Below, piece by piece: positions 17,527 through 56,145 of a DNA stretch of 64,000 nucleotides. Below the pieces are notes generated by a model. The model was not told the DNA's origin. It worked only from the letters and a program-made list of their open reading frames with translations, and ran no database searches. This DNA is from Chloroflexota bacterium (lineage in GTDB: Bacteria; Chloroflexota; Anaerolineae; Promineifilales; Promineifilaceae): positions 124,001 to 188,000 of the forward strand of contig JAGNBF010000001.1 of assembly GCA_018004935.1 (NCBI GenBank). The letters run 5' to 3'. Numbering within the stretch: the stretch's first letter is position 1; every line of letters begins with the position of its first letter. The translations under genes were made by a program, and so were the position numbers.

Positions 17527-19167
17527 ATGAAACGCTTCGCTGGCTTCATTATCACCTTTGTCGTTCTCCTGATTGCCCTCAGCTTGCCGGTGGAGCGCGG
17601 CCCGTTAGCCACGTACATTGTTCAAGCCGGTAACAGTGAGATTGCGGCCGCGGTTGTTCGTGAACACGGCGGTCTGGTACAAGAACATTTGCCCATCGTT
17701 CAGGGCGTTTCTGCGGATCTAACAACCGCGCAGTTCCAGGCTTTGCAGAAAGATAGCCGTATTACCTCACTGTTTGCCGACCAGGCAGTTCACACAACCG
17801 GCTGGGAAGCCCCCACTGTCTACTTCCCGCAAGTTGCTGGTGCCGATCAGGCCTGGGCGCAAGGGGTAGATGGGAATGGCATCACCGTGGCTGTGGTAGA
17901 CACCGGGATTGCCGCCTTTGATTGGAATGTACAACGTATCCGGGCACGTTATGATGCATTGGATAATGGCCCGAGCATGAATGATAAGAATGGGCATGGC
18001 ACATTCATTGCTGGCCTGATCGGCAGTAATCGTCAGGATCAGAATGGCTATGTGGGTATCGCCCCGAAAATTAAATTTGTGGATGTGCGGGTGTTGGGTG
18101 CCGATGGGTCAGGTACGTACACGGATGTGATTCAAGGTCTGAACTGGGTTCTGACACACAAAAATCAGTACAACATTCGGGTTGTAAACCTGTCGTTGGT
18201 AAGTGCTGTTCAAGGCCCCTATTGGGCAGACCCAATTAATCAGGCGGTAGAAGCGTTGTGGGGTGCAGGAATTGTGGTCGTTGCGGCCGCGGGCAATGAT
18301 GGCTCTGATCCCATGACTGTATCCGTACCCGGTAATGACCCCTTTGTGATTACGGTAGGCGCTTTTACCGACAACTATACCCCCTATGATGAGAGTGATG
18401 ATTATGTAACACCTTTCAGTGGGGCTGGCCCAACAGAAACCGGTTTTGTGAAACCGGATGTTATCGCCCCCGGTGCGCACATGATTTCAACCATGCGGGC
18501 TTTCCATACCTGGGCCGGAGAACATCCTGAACTACAGGTGGCCCCCCAATATTATCAGTCGGCTGGTACATCTGCGGCCGCGGCGGTCACTTCTGGTGTT
18601 GTCGCCCTCATGTTAGACCAAAACCCCAACCTCACCCCTAACCAGGTCAAATACAACCTGATGGCGTCGGCTCGGCCTGCCATTTACAACGACAATAGCC
18701 TGGTCTGGAGCCTCTTCCAGCAGGGTGCCGGGCGAGTATGGGTTCCCGAAGCCGTTTTTGGTGGTTATTCTGGCACTGCTAATGGCACAATGGTTCCCGG
18801 TCAAAAATATGTGGGGCCAGTGGTGTACAGAGATGGCGAATTCACCTTTGTGAATGCCAATGGAACGGAATGGACTAACATGTCTGGCTTCTCCTGGACG
18901 GGCGGCTTTTCCTGGACAGGCGGTTTCTCCTGGACAGGCGGCTTCTCCTGGACAGGTGGTTTCTCTTGGACAGGCGGTTTCTCCTGGACGGGTACAACCG
19001 AGTGGCAAGAAATGAACGAAGGCGATACCTGGCAGAGTGGCTTCTCCTGGACGGGAACGGAAGCCTGGCCTGGTGGTTTCTCGTGGACTGGTGGCTTCTC
19101 CTGGACAGGTGGTTACCCCTGGACAGGGGGGTTCTCTTGGACTGGTATTCTGGGTTCGGCAGATTAA
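17527..19167 (+). CDS. Secreted subtilisin-like serine protease (S8) with FSWTG repeats
   Basis: The 546-residue protein has a signal peptide (MKRFAGFIITFVVLLIALSL), an inhibitor-like propeptide (residues about 28-90) and an S8 catalytic domain. The triad is visible: Asp125 in AVVDTGIA, His157 in KNGHGTFIAG, Ser349 in SAGTSAAAAV; oxyanion Asn257 lies in VAAAGND. The usual GTSMAAP around the serine reads GTSAAAA, where the DNA is the overrepresented octamer GCGGCCGC (18574-18581). After residue 450 the chain becomes a hydrophobic repeat: ten FSWTG units plus one YPWTG, in a block of six and a block of three plus one. The tail is likely a surface or self-association module; this is inference. 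AAGGAGG precedes the ATG, and a hairpin terminator follows. Confidence 0.9.
   Translation: MKRFAGFIITFVVLLIALSLPVERGPLATYIVQAGNSEIAAAVVREHGGLVQEHLPIVQGVSADLTTAQFQALQKDSRITSLFADQAVHTTGWEAPTVYFPQVAGADQAWAQGVDGNGITVAVVDTGIAAFDWNVQRIRARYDALDNGPSMNDKNGHGTFIAGLIGSNRQDQNGYVGIAPKIKFVDVRVLGADGSGTYTDVIQGLNWVLTHKNQYNIRVVNLSLVSAVQGPYWADPINQAVEALWGAGIVVVAAAGNDGSDPMTVSVPGNDPFVITVGAFTDNYTPYDESDDYVTPFSGAGPTETGFVKPDVIAPGAHMISTMRAFHTWAGEHPELQVAPQYYQSAGTSAAAAVTSGVVALMLDQNPNLTPNQVKYNLMASARPAIYNDNSLVWSLFQQGAGRVWVPEAVFGGYSGTANGTMVPGQKYVGPVVYRDGEFTFVNANGTEWTNMSGFSWTGGFSWTGGFSWTGGFSWTGGFSWTGGFSWTGTTEWQEMNEGDTWQSGFSWTGTEAWPGGFSWTGGFSWTGGYPWTGGFSWTGILGSAD
18884..19148 (+). repeat. 18-bp tandem coding repeat (GGFSWT)
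   Basis: Units read approximately GGC GGC TTC TCC TGG ACA. Synonymous changes between units (TTT/TTC, TCT/TCC, ACG/ACA) show the peptide is conserved rather than freshly duplicated. A non-repeat spacer (TTEWQEMNEGDTW) divides the array. Confidence 0.9.
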
Positions 19168-44586: not shown

Positions 44587-45965
44587 TTAATTGGATAACC
44601 AAAAAATGCCATAGGGTACGTATGTGTCAGTAGTATCAAGCAATTGAAAGACTTGCCCTCCTGTCCGATGAATAAGACTCAAACTAGAACCATTACTGTC
44701 TTTACTATGAAACACCAGCCATTGCCCATCAGGAGACCAAGCCAGAGGGCGCAACTCAGCACTCCCAGGTATATCTAGCAAGATTGTCGGTGTGTTATTT
44801 GTTATATCTAGCACCATCAACTGACCATGTTCTTCATGCAAAAATCCGAGTACTATGTTTTGACCATCTGGTAACCATAATGCGTAAAGATTAGAATAAG
44901 CTTCTGTGAGGGGATGACTCTCTCCACTTTCAGTATCCCATAAAGTCAAAGACGAGGACAAAGGTAATCCTATACCAACCCTGAACCCTTCGGTAAACGC
45001 CAGATAAGGACTATTCGGTGACCAGAGAGGCACACTAAAAAATCAGCCCCAACAAGATTTATTGTGCTTAATGAGGCCATATCAAGCGCATATAACCCAA
45101 CCCCAATATATTCATTTGAGACTAAATATTGGCTATCAGGTGACCAAGTTAAGTTCGATGCCTGCTTCTCAATATCCAACATGGTTATTGAAGAAGTTAT
45201 GGTATCCAGTAAATAAATCTCACCCCCATAAATACCTATTGCCAAATAGTTACCATTTGGTGACCAAGCGAGTTCTTGTACTTCACCAGGAAAAGAGTGT
45301 AGCAATTCCGGTGACCCTGTGATGGGGTGAGTGGCAACGTATACATCCGTACCGCTTTGATAAGCCAGCCGTTGACTATCATTTGACCAGGTTAGATTAC
45401 GTGCCCAGGGGTAATTATCTGTAATTCGCTCAAGTTCGTTGTTAGTCAGGGAATAAACGAAAACGTTAGGAATATCAAGATAGTGAGCCGCTCCTTGGAA
45501 ACTGACACTGCCATCACCGTTCGCATCTTCTAGCGCGGTGAAGGCCAGCTTTGTCTTATCGGGCGAAAGGGCAATAACAGGAATGCCTACCAAGCTCGTT
45601 AATACTGCTTCAACACGCCAATCGTCTGGTGTTTCACCTGGCACTGCCATATACAAATTATGAACGGGATCGGGCAAATCATCGGGGCGGGAAAGCGGGT
45701 CCCACATAAAGTAGATACGACCGGTGGGGGGAGAAATCGGTTCAGGTGTTTGTGTAGGTTCTGGTGTATGAGTCGGTGTTATTGTCGCAGTTGCCGCTAT
45801 CGTTGTCGGTGTGTCAGGGTTCACCGGTTCGGTGGTAGGAGTTAAGCTAGGCGTTGCCGAAAGTGTCAGGGTTGTTCCCTGGGCTATAGGCGTAGAAGTA
45901 GTAGATTCGCCCGTTGTGCAAGCACCCAGAAACAGGCAAAGCAGGAGCCAAAACCATTGTTTCAT
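44587..45965 (-). pseudogene. TolB-like (PD40) propeller lipoprotein with a frameshift
   Basis: Two overlapping frames belong to one gene. The upstream frame (44970-45965) begins with a lipoprotein signal (WLLLCLFLGAC), a Thr/Pro spacer and PD40-type blades (LTWSNDSQRLAYQS, LAWSPNGNYLAIG, LTWSPDSQYLVSN). It derails after NLVGADF. The downstream frame (44587-45033) resumes with PLWSPNSPYLAF and LAWSPDGQWLVFH. One additional T in the message T6 run (A6 at 45037-45042) would join them as GADFFSVPLWSPN. The whole would be about 460 residues. It could be a real mutation, a sequencing error in a homopolymer, or slippage-controlled expression. It sits among an M23 peptidase and another propeller gene, so a role in envelope biology is likely but unproven. 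Confidence 0.75.
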
Positions 45966-46031: not shown

Positions 46032-47329
46032 TCATTCTTGATCGCTGACAAGCCAGGCCGGATAACGGACAATACCGGGATACGTCACCGGTTGGGCCGT
46101 TTGACCGGGCGTAAGAAGCCAGATGGCATCATCGGCGGTAAAGGCCAGTTGCTTCCCATCTGGCGACCAGATCGGATCGTAAACCAGATTGCCCGTAAAT
46201 TGGGTCAGGGGCGTGATGGTGCCGGTGGCAATATCAGCCCGGTACAGATTGCTTTGCAAGGCGTTCGGCCACTCATCCGCCTTGACATCATCAGGGTTTT
46301 CGCGGTGGACGTAGGTAATGGTTTGCCCATCAGGATGCCAGACCGGGGGATACCCATGCCCGGCATCGGCTGGAGCTAACAAGGTCAACGGTTGGCCGCT
46401 GGTATCAGCCAGCCATAACTCACCGACGGTGTAGGGAATGTTGCTATCGGGCATGAGGATGTAGGCCATCTGTTGGCCGTCAGGCGACCAACGGGGGTAG
46501 GCAATGATATGCCGAGGTTGCTGTTGTAGGACGGTGCGTTCTCCATTGACCAGATTGAGCAGTCCCATTTCACTGCCAAAGCCAAGCCCTCGACTGGCAA
46601 CGTAAATCACCTGTTGACCATCAGGAGTAAAAGTAGCGTCATACGTCCCGAAAGGCAAGTCGAGCAGGGTTTGGTAGAGCGTCGCGGCTTCCACAAGGTA
46701 AATCTGGTGGTTATCGGCGTTACGGAAAAGGAACCAACCGCCATCGGGTGACCAGTTCAGGAAATAGCCGCGAGGAAACGTTACCGTAGCGGCGTTGGGT
46801 GGGGTTGTGGGGACAAGACGGGCGAAGTAATCCGCGTGGCAAAAGGTTTGCAAGATCAGGTATTGGCTGTTGGGTGACATGATCACCTGATCGACAATAC
46901 AGGTGGGGGAATGGCTTTGTAGATTGAGGGTAAGTGGCTGGTTGGTTGTTACCAAACTGGTTAAGGGATCGAAGGGTAGGGCAATGGTAGTCGTTTGGGC
47001 TCTTTGGGTATTTAGGGGGTTGACACCATATGTACGGGCTGGCCTTGTGCCTGCCCAGTGTGGGGCAACCACAAGGGTTGCCCGTACCCCACGAAATCCC
47101 GAAGACCCGTCGTTTGTTCAGCCAGAGAAAGTGCCGGGCCATTGGTGACGTTGGCGGGATAGTTAACAAAAACGAGATGTGTCGGCGGCCGCGCCATAGG
47201 CGCGGCCGCACCTGGTTGTATTTTAGGATACTGAGCTTTACCGGTCGGGGTGGGCAGCTTGCTGAAGAGGATAACGGCAGTACATAAAGCGATAAGCACG
47301 TTAAGCAGGAATAAGTACCGGTTTTTCAT
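46032..47329 (-). pseudogene. TolB-like (PD40) propeller gene split by a family B element
   Basis: The start (from 47329) encodes MKNRYLFLLNVLIALC, a signal anchor, then a Pro/Ala-rich spacer ending ALSLAEQTT. The body (to 46032) encodes blades such as FLNWSPDGGWFLF, YPRWSPDGQQMAYI and DPIWSPDGKQLAFTADD. Between them lies a 111-bp element flanked by GTCGTTTG repeats. Removing the element and one repeat restores a continuous frame, ALSLAEQTTTIALPFDPL. The net 119-base gain shifts the frame, so the intact product (about 390 residues) is not made. An ATG inside the element opens the downstream frame, but that product would lack a signal. Confidence 0.85.
46998..47108. mobile_element. Family B element, 111 bp, inside a gene
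   Basis: Target duplication GTCGTTTG at 46990-46997 and 47109-47116. Ends are GGCTCTTTGGGTATTTAG and, as complement of the right end, GGGTCTTCGGGATTTCGT. The core is the GGGCAACCACAAGGGTTGCC hairpin. Confidence 0.92.
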
Positions 47330-52682: not shown

Positions 52683-55232
52683 TCAAAAACGTGTTTCTCG
52701 TACGATGCGGGTGAGGGTGAGGACTAACATTTCGCCAAATGATTGTAACTTTTCCTGGTCAATTGTTGCCAGGGTGTCGGCGGTGGGGGCGGGGTAAGGG
52801 CCAGCCCATTTAAAAAGAAGCCAATAGGGGATACGCCGGGAAAGCATATCGCTATCAAATTCGTAGGTGTCGGCGGCCAGGACAATGGGGATACCAACTT
52901 CACTGCTGGTGTTTTGTACCAATTCGCGTAACTGGCTATTGATGTCTGGTTGAACCAGGAGAAGGTTATCGCCGCTGGCTCCCACATAATCGAGTTGCAC
53001 GACAATGGCTGGTTGCACATTAGAGCTCATCCGTTGGGTGCGTAAGTGGCGGAAATTGAAGCGGTCGGACAGCCACGCGGCCGCGCCCGAATCATCCAGT
53101 GCCCCCCCACCCCAGGCTACAAACAGGGTTGAACGTCGCCCGTCTAACCCTTGTTCTTGCCAGAGGCGAGCTACTTCCAGCATCAACCCCACTCCGGCCG
53201 CATTGTTATTGGCTCCGGGATACACCGTGCCGTCTGGGTCCATCCCCAGGCCATCATAACTGACAAAAACCACGACCAACTCTTCGGCCAGGTCGGCATC
53301 ATTGCCCATCATGTATCCCAGCACATGGGGCACATTGACCGTTTCCGGTTCGCCCAGTTGCAGTGCCATCTCTACCTGACTCTCCAGATTGACGGTAAAC
53401 CAGCCCGTACCCATCTGTGTGTAGTCTGCCTGTCCCCCTACCACCTCAGCCCATGTCCAACCCCCGGCGGCCAGGATGGCTTCGCTTACGGAGGGTCGTA
53501 CCCGGAAAATGGGCAGTTGAGGCAAGCTGAGGTATTCCCCCTCGGGGTTGGGCAGTTGTACCTGGGAGCGAATGTCGTCACGGCCATTTCCGGCTACCCA
53601 GATAACCCCCACCGCCCCCCGGATGAGGGCTTCGTGGGCAAAATCGGATGGCGCATTGTCGGTGCGGACGAGGGCAATGCGGCCGCGTAAATCCAACCCG
53701 GCATAATCGCCCCATTCTGGCCGTTCTCCGGTAAAAGCGATAAGGGTGAGGGGGGCCATTACCTCACCGCTACCCCCATGTCCGGCAATCATATAACCAA
53801 AATCGAGTTGATGTTGATAAGTGGCGACCACCTGCCCGGCGCTATCAAGCAGGCGTAGGCTGGGCTGAGTGGTGGGCCGGACGATGCGGGTTTCGGTGGT
53901 GAAGAGGTAGCTATTATTGCGCCAGCCCGGTTCTAGCCCATAAGCGGTGAACTGTTCAGTGATGTACGCGGCCGCGGCATCACCTCCCGCCTGCCCAATA
54001 CCGCGCCCTTCCATCGTTGTCAGGGTGGTGACATGTTCATACACCGTCTGCCCATCAAAAGATTGGGCCACCTGGGCAAACCAGGGAGCGGCCCCGGTGT
54101 TATTCATAATAAAGACAGTAGCCAATGTCACCGCCGCTACCACCAGGAGCATCCGTTTGCGCAGGAGGAAGGCGGTGTTAATGCGCCCTTTTTCTAATAA
54201 ACGGCGCAACCCTTCACCCAACGCATTGAACCCCATGACGGCGATAAAAAAGGCGGTTGCCGGGTAAAACACCATAAATGGTTTGGAGCGTAACCAGCGG
54301 AACCCCTCCGCGATCATCGCTCCCCACTCCGGCACTTCGGCAACGGTGAACAGTTGAGAGGCGCCAATATCTTCCACGGCGAAGCGACTGCCCCCGCCAA
54401 TGAAGATGCCCACAAAACCCAGTTCGCCCAAAAGCATTAATACTGCCCCCATCTCCAGGAACGAGATGATGAGTAGTTGGGGCAAAATGTTGGGGATGAC
54501 ATGGCGTACGGCAATTTCTAGCCCGTTCAGACCGGTAGCTTGTGCCCCTTCGATATAGGGTTGTTTGCGTAAGACCAAAAACTCACTGCGAATATATTGG
54601 GCTATTTCGGTCCAACCCAGTACTGAGAGGGCGATGATAAACACCAGCAGACCGCGCCGGATGTCCAGGGCTAAAATGAGGATGATGCTACTGATAAGAA
54701 TGGGTAGGGAAGTGAGGAGGCCAATGGTTCCCATGATGAACCGGTCTGAGGTTGACCCTTCATTCCAGCCCGCGGCCGCGCCCAGGGCCAGCCCCAACAA
54801 AACCCGCATCATGGTGATAAAGGCGCAGGCGATGAGTGTATTCCGTGCCCCGTGCATGATGAGGCTCAGGATATCCGTACCCCATTGGTTTGTGCCCAAA
54901 GGGTATTCGGGGGAAGGGTCTAGAGGGGGGCGAATGAATACGCCCTGTTCTGCATCGTAATGGGGCAAAATGCGCTGGCCGGAGAGATAGGGGTTTTGTG
55001 GTGCCCACACTGGCCCCAAAACGGCTACCAGGAAGAGGGCAATGATGATGAAGGTTCCCAACATGAAAGGCATATTGAGAAACACATCCTGCCAACGGAT
55101 ACGGTTACGTGCTCCCCCAGGAACTTCACCGGCGGCCGCCTGCCCGTGCGCGGCCGCGACCGAAGCCGCCATGCCGGGTATGTCCGTATACTGGGCGCGA
55201 GGGTTGAGGAGACGACGAAAGAGATTAGCCAT
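52683..55232 (-). CDS. DppC-like ABC permease fused to a degenerate M28 peptidase domain
   Basis: The 849-residue protein is a fusion. Residues 1-365 are an oligopeptide-type permease (DppC/OppC): LGTNQWGTDILSLIMHGARN, the coupling loop EGAQATGLNGLEIAVRHVIPN, and about six helices. A further membrane helix (MLLVVAAVTLATVFIM) leads to an exterior M28 aminopeptidase-like fold with a protease-associated domain insert (RGRIALVRTDNAPSDF). The M28 zinc sites are altered: SYDG replaces xHYD, GANNNAAG replaces GAxDNxSG, and AWGGGALDDSG replaces the FxxxEExG motif. The domain is therefore probably non-catalytic and may bind peptides for the permease. Its start overlaps the dppB-like gene by eight bases. 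Confidence 0.88.
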   Translation of the reverse strand: MANLFRRLLNPRAQYTDIPGMAASVAAAHGQAAAGEVPGGARNRIRWQDVFLNMPFMLGTFIIIALFLVAVLGPVWAPQNPYLSGQRILPHYDAEQGVFIRPPLDPSPEYPLGTNQWGTDILSLIMHGARNTLIACAFITMMRVLLGLALGAAAGWNEGSTSDRFIMGTIGLLTSLPILISSIILILALDIRRGLLVFIIALSVLGWTEIAQYIRSEFLVLRKQPYIEGAQATGLNGLEIAVRHVIPNILPQLLIISFLEMGAVLMLLGELGFVGIFIGGGSRFAVEDIGASQLFTVAEVPEWGAMIAEGFRWLRSKPFMVFYPATAFFIAVMGFNALGEGLRRLLEKGRINTAFLLRKRMLLVVAAVTLATVFIMNNTGAAPWFAQVAQSFDGQTVYEHVTTLTTMEGRGIGQAGGDAAAAYITEQFTAYGLEPGWRNNSYLFTTETRIVRPTTQPSLRLLDSAGQVVATYQHQLDFGYMIAGHGGSGEVMAPLTLIAFTGERPEWGDYAGLDLRGRIALVRTDNAPSDFAHEALIRGAVGVIWVAGNGRDDIRSQVQLPNPEGEYLSLPQLPIFRVRPSVSEAILAAGGWTWAEVVGGQADYTQMGTGWFTVNLESQVEMALQLGEPETVNVPHVLGYMMGNDADLAEELVVVFVSYDGLGMDPDGTVYPGANNNAAGVGLMLEVARLWQEQGLDGRRSTLFVAWGGGALDDSGAAAWLSDRFNFRHLRTQRMSSNVQPAIVVQLDYVGASGDNLLLVQPDINSQLRELVQNTSSEVGIPIVLAADTYEFDSDMLSRRIPYWLLFKWAGPYPAPTADTLATIDQEKLQSFGEMLVLTLTRIVRETRF

Positions 55233-56145
55233 TTTGGGTTTCTAAGCGGGGGTCTACCAGGCGGTACAACACATCCAGAATTAAATTGACAAGTAACAGG
55301 GTCAGCCCCAGGGCCAGCGCCAGGGTGACAACCACGACCGTTTGTCGGCTGTTGATGGCTTCTAGCAGACGCAGGCCAATTCCCGGCCAGGCAAAGAAAA
55401 ACTCGACTACCGGCAAGGTGGTTAATGAAAAGCGCAACGAGACGCCCACGGCGGTTAAGACAGGGACGGCAATATTCCGTAGGGCGTGAATGTTGACAAC
55501 CATGCGCAATGGCCGCAACCCTTTGGCATAAGCGGTGCGAATGAAATCGGCTTCCATAACGCGGTTGAGGGCCAGGAAGGATGTGCGCGTGAGATAGGCC
55601 AGCGGCCGCGCTCCCAGTACCAGCACCGGAAAGAGCATGTGGTCCAAATCCCAGCCCAATCCGGCTACACTGACCAGATGACGGCCCGTCTCGCGCAGGT
55701 AAACAATGGCCATATTTTGCAGGAGCATTCCGGCAAAGAAGGAGGGAATAGAGACGCCAATGACGGTAATGGTTAGGAGGGGGAGGGCGAGGGGGATTTT
55801 TTTGCTGAGCGCGGCCGCACCACCAAGAAAGAAACCGATTGCGGCCGCGATACTCAAAGAAACAAGGAGCAACCCCAGGCTATTACGATACGCTTCACCC
55901 AAAATCGCCCGCACTTCCATCGGGGGACCACTGTCTGGCTGTAACAGCCCCAGATCACCAGCGGTAACTCCTTGTAAATAGCGTGTTGTGTTATCCCAGG
56001 CCGTGCTTGTCCGGCTGGCAACATCATAACTCGGGGTTAAAACATCAGAATTGCTCACCATGTCCATGCCCAAAAAAATGGCAAAGATGATGAAAATGCA
56101 AGTGAGTGCAATGGTGAGTAAGCGTTGGCCGATGAAGCGAAACAT
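55225..56145 (-). CDS. DppB-like ABC permease
   Basis: The 306-residue permease matches DppB/OppB in layout. An N-terminal helix (RLLTIALTCIFIIFAIFLGM) precedes a large exterior loop. Five more helices follow, with the coupling-region signature DFIRTAYAKGLRPLRMVVNIHALRN, read as DFIRTAYAKGLRPLRMVV, and PGIGLRLLEAINSRQ. It forms a pair with the permease-M28 fusion and overlaps it by eight bases. No binding protein or ATPase gene is nearby, so the pair either uses shared subunits encoded elsewhere or a modified mechanism in which the fused M28 domain replaces the receptor (inference). Heptads (GTTCACT, GTTTACT on the message strand) immediately precede the ATG instead of a ribosome site. Confidence 0.9.
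   Translation of the reverse strand: MFRFIGQRLLTIALTCIFIIFAIFLGMDMVSNSDVLTPSYDVASRTSTAWDNTTRYLQGVTAGDLGLLQPDSGPPMEVRAILGEAYRNSLGLLLVSLSIAAAIGFFLGGAAALSKKIPLALPLLTITVIGVSIPSFFAGMLLQNMAIVYLRETGRHLVSVAGLGWDLDHMLFPVLVLGARPLAYLTRTSFLALNRVMEADFIRTAYAKGLRPLRMVVNIHALRNIAVPVLTAVGVSLRFSLTTLPVVEFFFAWPGIGLRLLEAINSRQTVVVVTLALALGLTLLLVNLILDVLYRLVDPRLETQNG

Follow-up and report, generated by a model that had tools for sequence, protein, structure and literature searches.

A gene pair in the 64,000-nucleotide stretch of Chloroflexota DNA analysed here (the window) encodes two permease subunits of the dppB and dppC type, the second of which continues into a complete M28 peptidase fold that has lost its catalytic site. 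The best reading, which we hold tentatively and at somewhat under an even chance, is that this domain may be a tethered peptide-capture module working in lieu of a binding protein, with the ATPase supplied in trans. No report of M28–permease fusions was found in the open-access literature searched.

The fused permease and its M28 domain

The two genes overlap by 8 bp, and the coordinates given for both in a first-pass annotation of this DNA are right (Table 1). Pfam detects BPD_transp_1 in both genes and Peptidase_M28 in dppC-M28 (37.8 bits; cut-off 21.3), and finds no SBP domain in either. The BPD_transp_1 permease pair carries conserved EAA-type coupling loops, that of DppB reading FIRTAYAKGL...HALRN. 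Two BPD_transp_1 permeases with conserved coupling loops are what the pair shares with the Dpp/Opp ABC importers (DppBC, OppBC); it differs from these in having no linked SBP or DppD/F and in adding a seventh helix and a 467-residue putative ectodomain, and all NCBIfam Dpp/Opp models score far under their equivalog cut-offs on it. A chance fusion or an assembly artefact is ruled out by recurrence, with strong fusion matches in 70 of 396 searched genomes of the class, spread over 54 of 222 genera. The genome of the window contains a second, unlinked pair (G000:C180) that is 42% identical to the pair in the window and whose site is still more degraded.

Table 1 Features of the gene pair in the window (M28 site numbering after the Aeromonas aminopeptidase)
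Feature	Coordinates	Strand	Basis
dppB-type permease, 306 aa	55225..56145	(-)	BPD_transp_1, 87.6 bits
dppC-type permease fused to inactive M28 domain, 849 aa	52683..55232	(-)	ORF, Pfam, survey of relatives
DppC half, residues 1-349, six predicted helices	54186..55232	(-)	BPD_transp_1 at 147-349; phmmer to solved OppC/DppC
DppC-half coupling loop, YIEGAQATGLNGLEIAVRHVIPN	54489-54557	(-)	
Seventh hydrophobic segment, RKR ahead of it	54093..54161	(-)	Hydropathy and charge
Inactive PA+M28 domain (predicted ectodomain), residues 383-849	52686..54086	(-)	AF2 model; VIA matches 6hc6, 2ek8
SYDGLG, residues 658-663, former HxD motif; zinc ligand H97>S658, Asp of HxD kept as D660	53244..53261	(-)	
PGANNNAAG, residues 672-680; bridging Asp D117>N676	53193..53219	(-)	
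WGGGALDDSG, residues 707-716, former EE pair; general base E151>G710, ligand E152>A711	53085..53114	(-)	
VVQLDYVG, residues 744-751; zinc ligand D179 kept as D748	52980..53003	(-)	
ADTYEFDSDMLSRRIP, residues 787-802, former SDH motif; last His ligand H256>D793, alignment less certain	52827..52874	(-)	

The C-terminal 467 residues (383–849) were modelled by AF2 with a pLDDT of 84.3 and a pTM of 0.87 as a complete M28 domain with a PA insertion. The nearest solved structure (VIA) is the B. subtilis aminopeptidase BSAP (6hc6; Z 28.2, rmsd 4.2, 368 residues), followed by the Aneurinibacillus (AM-1) aminopeptidase (2ek8; Z 27.9, rmsd 4.5, 381 residues), and a residue-level HMM alignment against both structures yields the same motif placement. 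The likeness to these PA-bearing M28 aminopeptidases covers the whole domain (Z 28 over 368–381 residues), whereas the window domain has neither a zinc site nor a general base and is tethered to the membrane by a permease. An AF2 model of the full 849-residue protein (7 sequences) was poor, with a pLDDT of 47, and was left out of all statements on the fold. Hydropathy and charge lead us to expect that the seventh helix takes the M28 domain to the outside. The pattern appears general across the family, though not strict: mean hydropathy of the segment is at least 1.6 in 61 of 88 members, with a minimum of 1.14, and the mean number of positive residues drops from 2.2 ahead of it to 1.1 behind it.

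Alignment to live M28 domains shows that D748 is the only zinc ligand of the five (H, D, E, D, H) left in the window protein; the other four are replaced, the last of them less certainly, and the general-base Glu is absent, with G710 in its stead. The first-pass annotation, which had claimed the loss of the zinc motifs, quoted the altered motifs exactly as we read them and missed the retained D748 and D660. As judged from sequence, a catalytically dead peptidase is strongly supported. Alternative metal ligands, which that annotation had named as a possible counter-argument, look excluded by the sequence of the window protein but not in every relative: some keep H97, D117, E152 and D179, and one (L022) has H97/H117/D179 at the ligand positions.

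Distribution, inactivation and repeated tethering

A phylum-wide draw of 400 genomes placed the fusion in two more families outside the class; the class of G405 comprised a single genome when checked. Three architectures account for most of the 91 rows, namely split dppB plus dppC-M28 (33), single-chain B-C-M28 (42, plus two in tandem in L175) and ATPase-B-C-M28 (6), while the remaining rows are cut or have no detected dppB. One locus (L217:1862-10112, (+)) consists of one dppB followed by three tandem dppC-pseudoM28 genes, all of which keep four zinc-ligand positions and lack the catalytic Glu. In another (L126:6693-9227, also L024), an in-frame stop splits the pseudoM28 half into ORFs of 488 and 340 aa, indicating either a pseudogene or an assembly error.

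Trees obtained by quick searches place the dead M28 domains in one clade. DppC-half trees set the family apart from ordinary OppC with an SH-aLRT of 100 (against 7 OppC), and a tree that joins the family with the sister-class and propeller fusions described below separates all of them from 39 ordinary OppC with an SH-aLRT of 99. On these trees, the family is monophyletic.

Inactivation is general in this family, as the survey of homologous fusions proposed in the first-pass annotation revealed. A complete zinc site occurs in none of the 82 alignable members, a count from which the live sister-class fusion was left out. The general-base Glu is lost in 80 of the 82, and the two members that retain it (L155 and L157) are both without D117 and D179. 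Parsimony assigns H97, D99, D117, E152 and D179 to the family root and leaves a choice of E or G for position 151; this suggests an early loss of the base and, subsequently, repeated losses of the ligands. Several members retain four ligands in the absence of the general base, so that metal binding by some relatives is possible. The former zinc-ligand positions belong to the variable part of the domain; position 97, for example, is H, Q, Y, N, P, S, K, T, R, C or A across the family. In close pairs, dN/dS of the dead M28 domain amounts to 0.09–0.35 as compared with 0.03–0.21 for the DppC half, and in most pairs it exceeds the permease-half value by a factor of two to three. Values in this range show that the dead domain is maintained by purifying selection; it is kept and is not a decaying wreck.

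The same DppC lineage carries an M28 domain with an intact site (motifs GGHLDG, AANDNASG, AGEEEGL, NLDMDG and SDHFTF) in another class of the phylum (G615, G840, G839, G848), where the live fusion is followed in at least three of these genomes by a second, stand-alone M28 gene. In the M28 tree, the live fused domain groups with the free-standing M28 of its class, and the possibility that it represents the direct ancestor of the dead domain was rejected (joint clade, AU p 4e-40). M28 domains thus joined this permease lineage, or replaced one another on it, at least two times. At a further locus (L220:7000-10193, (+)), dppB is accompanied by a dppC of the same permease lineage that is fused to a BamB/PQQ-like propeller in place of M28. 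That tethering recurred is the strongest indication of the outer domain being important to the permease, and the separate attachment of a live M28 domain in another class argues that an M28-type domain at that spot is useful.

Binding proteins, ATPases and a neighbouring giant peptidase

Neither an SBP nor an oligopeptide ATPase adjoins the pair in the window, in agreement with the first-pass annotation; the nearest ABC ATPase lies 16 kb off among SsuBC/NMT1-type genes. A consistently linked dppA-like gene was likewise not found in relatives. Of 37 split-type loci, two have an SBP-like gene within 5 kb, in one case a marginal match of 29 bits, and one has an ABC ATPase; at fused-type loci the corresponding numbers are 5 and 3 of 50, and several of the SBPs close to fused-type members are part of an ordinary opp operon that has dppBC genes of its own. 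Since the survey genomes are largely fragmented, these counts give a minimum for linkage. Neighbour genes are plain ORF calls. All 30 positive genomes tested encode elsewhere both OppD/F-type ATPases and SBP_bac_5 proteins, the latter with 3–30 matches per genome and, in the genome of the window, with nine matches on seven contigs. The coupling loops are conserved in both permease halves across the family, which leads us to expect docking of an ATPase. The description of the pair as an orphan holds only in part: the relatives have a conserved operon, and the tested genomes possess SBPs and OppD/F that could act in trans.

In six members (L149, L150, L155, L157, L158 and L159), an ATPase, DppB, DppC and pseudoM28 form a single chain, the ATPase domain being MacB/LolD-like, and most of these members adjoin MacB/FtsX-like and HlyD-like genes. 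Walker A is gone in 3 of the 6, where the ATPase and peptidase parts are both degenerate; some members may therefore be no ordinary powered transporters.

Downstream of 19 split-type pairs, no more than 2.2 kb away and in the same orientation, lies the gene for a giant peptidase of the composition [DUF418]-M28-peptidase MA-M28 (1600–2050 aa where the contig end does not cut it); among the 27 loci whose downstream flank reaches 4.5 kb or more, 17 have it. A PD40 propeller gene is often sited between dppC-M28 and the giant peptidase. The first M28 domain of the giant has canonical motifs in 15 loci, so a dead permease-bound M28 accompanied by a separate, apparently live M28 is a recurrent pair. 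In L018, L019 and L020, the giant's own first M28 domain is degenerate. No giant adjoins the pair in the window or those in L130, L131, L216 and L217, and none was seen with the triple fusions. The genome of the window encodes its giant (2069 aa, DUF418-M28-peptidase MA-M28) on contig C145 (L213:8654-14863, (-)), unlinked to the pair in the window; its first M28 domain is canonical, and Gln occupies the general-base position of the second.

Two PD40-type beta-propeller genes (46032-47072 and 44970-45965, (-)) lie in the window on the strand of the pair, at least 5.6 kb downstream of it, and the former clusters with the PD40 gene sited between dppC-M28 and the giant in relatives. The window further contains a subtilisin-like protease gene (17527-19167, (+)) whose product ends in a long C-terminal run of GGFSWTG repeats.

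Possible roles of the tethered domain

If the tethered domain captures peptides, DppB and the DppC half would form a peptide-type ABC permease, and the ectodomain derived from an M28 aminopeptidase would replace the ordinary soluble binding protein, the seventh helix placing it on the outer face. With the zinc centre dismantled, the domain would no longer cut, and the retained fold would offer the permease pore its substrates, peptides or amino acids, which for most split-type relatives may be products of the neighbouring M28/MA peptidase. OppD/OppF-type ATPases that the same genome encodes in ordinary operons would probably contribute ATP hydrolysis in trans, the few relatives with a fused ATPase excepted. 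The proposal of the first-pass annotation that the dead peptidase is a built-in substrate receptor is plausible. Importers of the Dpp/Opp class are thought to require a bilobed binding protein to start transport, and permease–receptor fusions are found in GlnPQ and OpuA. EgtUBC, in which a receptor domain is covalently joined to the permease chain, is a precedent for such a fusion, but there the receptor is a true solute-binding domain and the ATPase gene is adjacent (PMC9732360), whereas the tether in the window is a dead M28 fold from end to end, with no SBP Pfam match and no adjacent ATPase.

Peptide capture is favoured by the completeness of the M28 fold despite the dead site, the charge pattern around the seventh helix, purifying selection on the dead domain, its single clade and that of its permeases, the conserved coupling loops, the lack of consistently linked SBPs, the OppD/F ATPases elsewhere in the 30 genomes, the giant peptidase beside many split-type pairs, the separately attached live M28 and the EgtUBC precedent. 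The analysis establishes fusion, fold, family-wide loss of the catalytic site, purifying selection, missing SBP linkage and conserved ATPase-docking loops, whereas the outer location, peptide binding, import and ATPase supply in trans are inferred. Several observations speak against peptide capture: the variable former ligand positions appear ill-suited to a receptor for one fixed ligand, the numerous SBP_bac_5 proteins could serve in trans, the loss of Walker A in three of the six fused ATPases casts doubt on ordinary powered transport in some members, and the pair in the window is not beside its genome's giant peptidase. The main rival, unlikely overall and still deserving real weight, is that the dead M28 domain would be a docking platform: by holding the secreted giant M28/MA peptidase, or some other partner, next to the permease opening, it would let products be taken up at their place of origin and would itself bind no substrate. 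The recurrent adjacency of the giant at split-type loci and the variability of the former active site fit docking, as do the transferrin receptor and nicalin, inactive animal M28 relatives that act via protein–protein contacts; against it count the loci without an adjacent giant, including the window and the triple fusions. The transferrin receptor and nicalin resemble the window protein as membrane-anchored M28 folds without a working site (by sequence matches and, for the transferrin receptor, also by fold), but they are eukaryotic, unfused to a transporter and regarded as inactivated separately. The data do not separate capture from docking, because former catalytic positions that differ from subclade to subclade suit docking and shifting ligand specificity alike.

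Rather improbable is a third arrangement, in which the permease receives its peptides in trans from an ordinary SBP of another locus and the dead M28 domain acts as gate, sensor or structural cap; it would account for the SBP_bac_5 matches in every tested genome and for the conserved coupling loops, but no SBP is consistently linked, and the bulky tethered domain probably fills the side at which an SBP would dock. We see only a small chance that the pair is a non-importer, that is, an exporter or part of a MacAB-like envelope complex built on a DppBC frame. The MacB/LolD-like ATPase fusions, most of them beside MacB/FtsX and HlyD-like genes, and the loss of Walker A in half of them point in this direction; these features are, however, confined to 6 of the 91 rows, the split-type pairs are without such genes, and the permease halves belong to the Dpp/Opp importer class. 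A functionless, drifting remnant is very hard to credit: the loss of the site, the elevated dN/dS relative to the permease half and the in-frame stop in L126 would agree with decay, but dN/dS lies well below 1, the frames are open across 70 genomes and the fold is intact.

Should peptide capture be true, a dead-peptidase outer domain on a permease would represent a different solution to substrate capture. It is possible, though on balance doubtful, that the family constitutes an ABC importer class, widespread in one phylum, whose receptor evolved from a permease-fused aminopeptidase and which combines a separate live peptidase with borrowed ATPases. Beyond the content of the first-pass annotation, sequence comparison reveals the range of architectures from split to single chain, the dead domain beside a live giant peptidase, and, on the same DppC lineage, a live M28 of separate origin. 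The phylum shows the stages side by side, with a live fused peptidase in one class, a dead one in another, and permease halves and ATPase merging step by step into single chains. Annotation of such genes as M28 peptidases predicts the wrong activity, and the system offers concrete constructs for studying the conversion of an enzyme into a receptor and for testing whether ATPases can be shared among ABC permeases.
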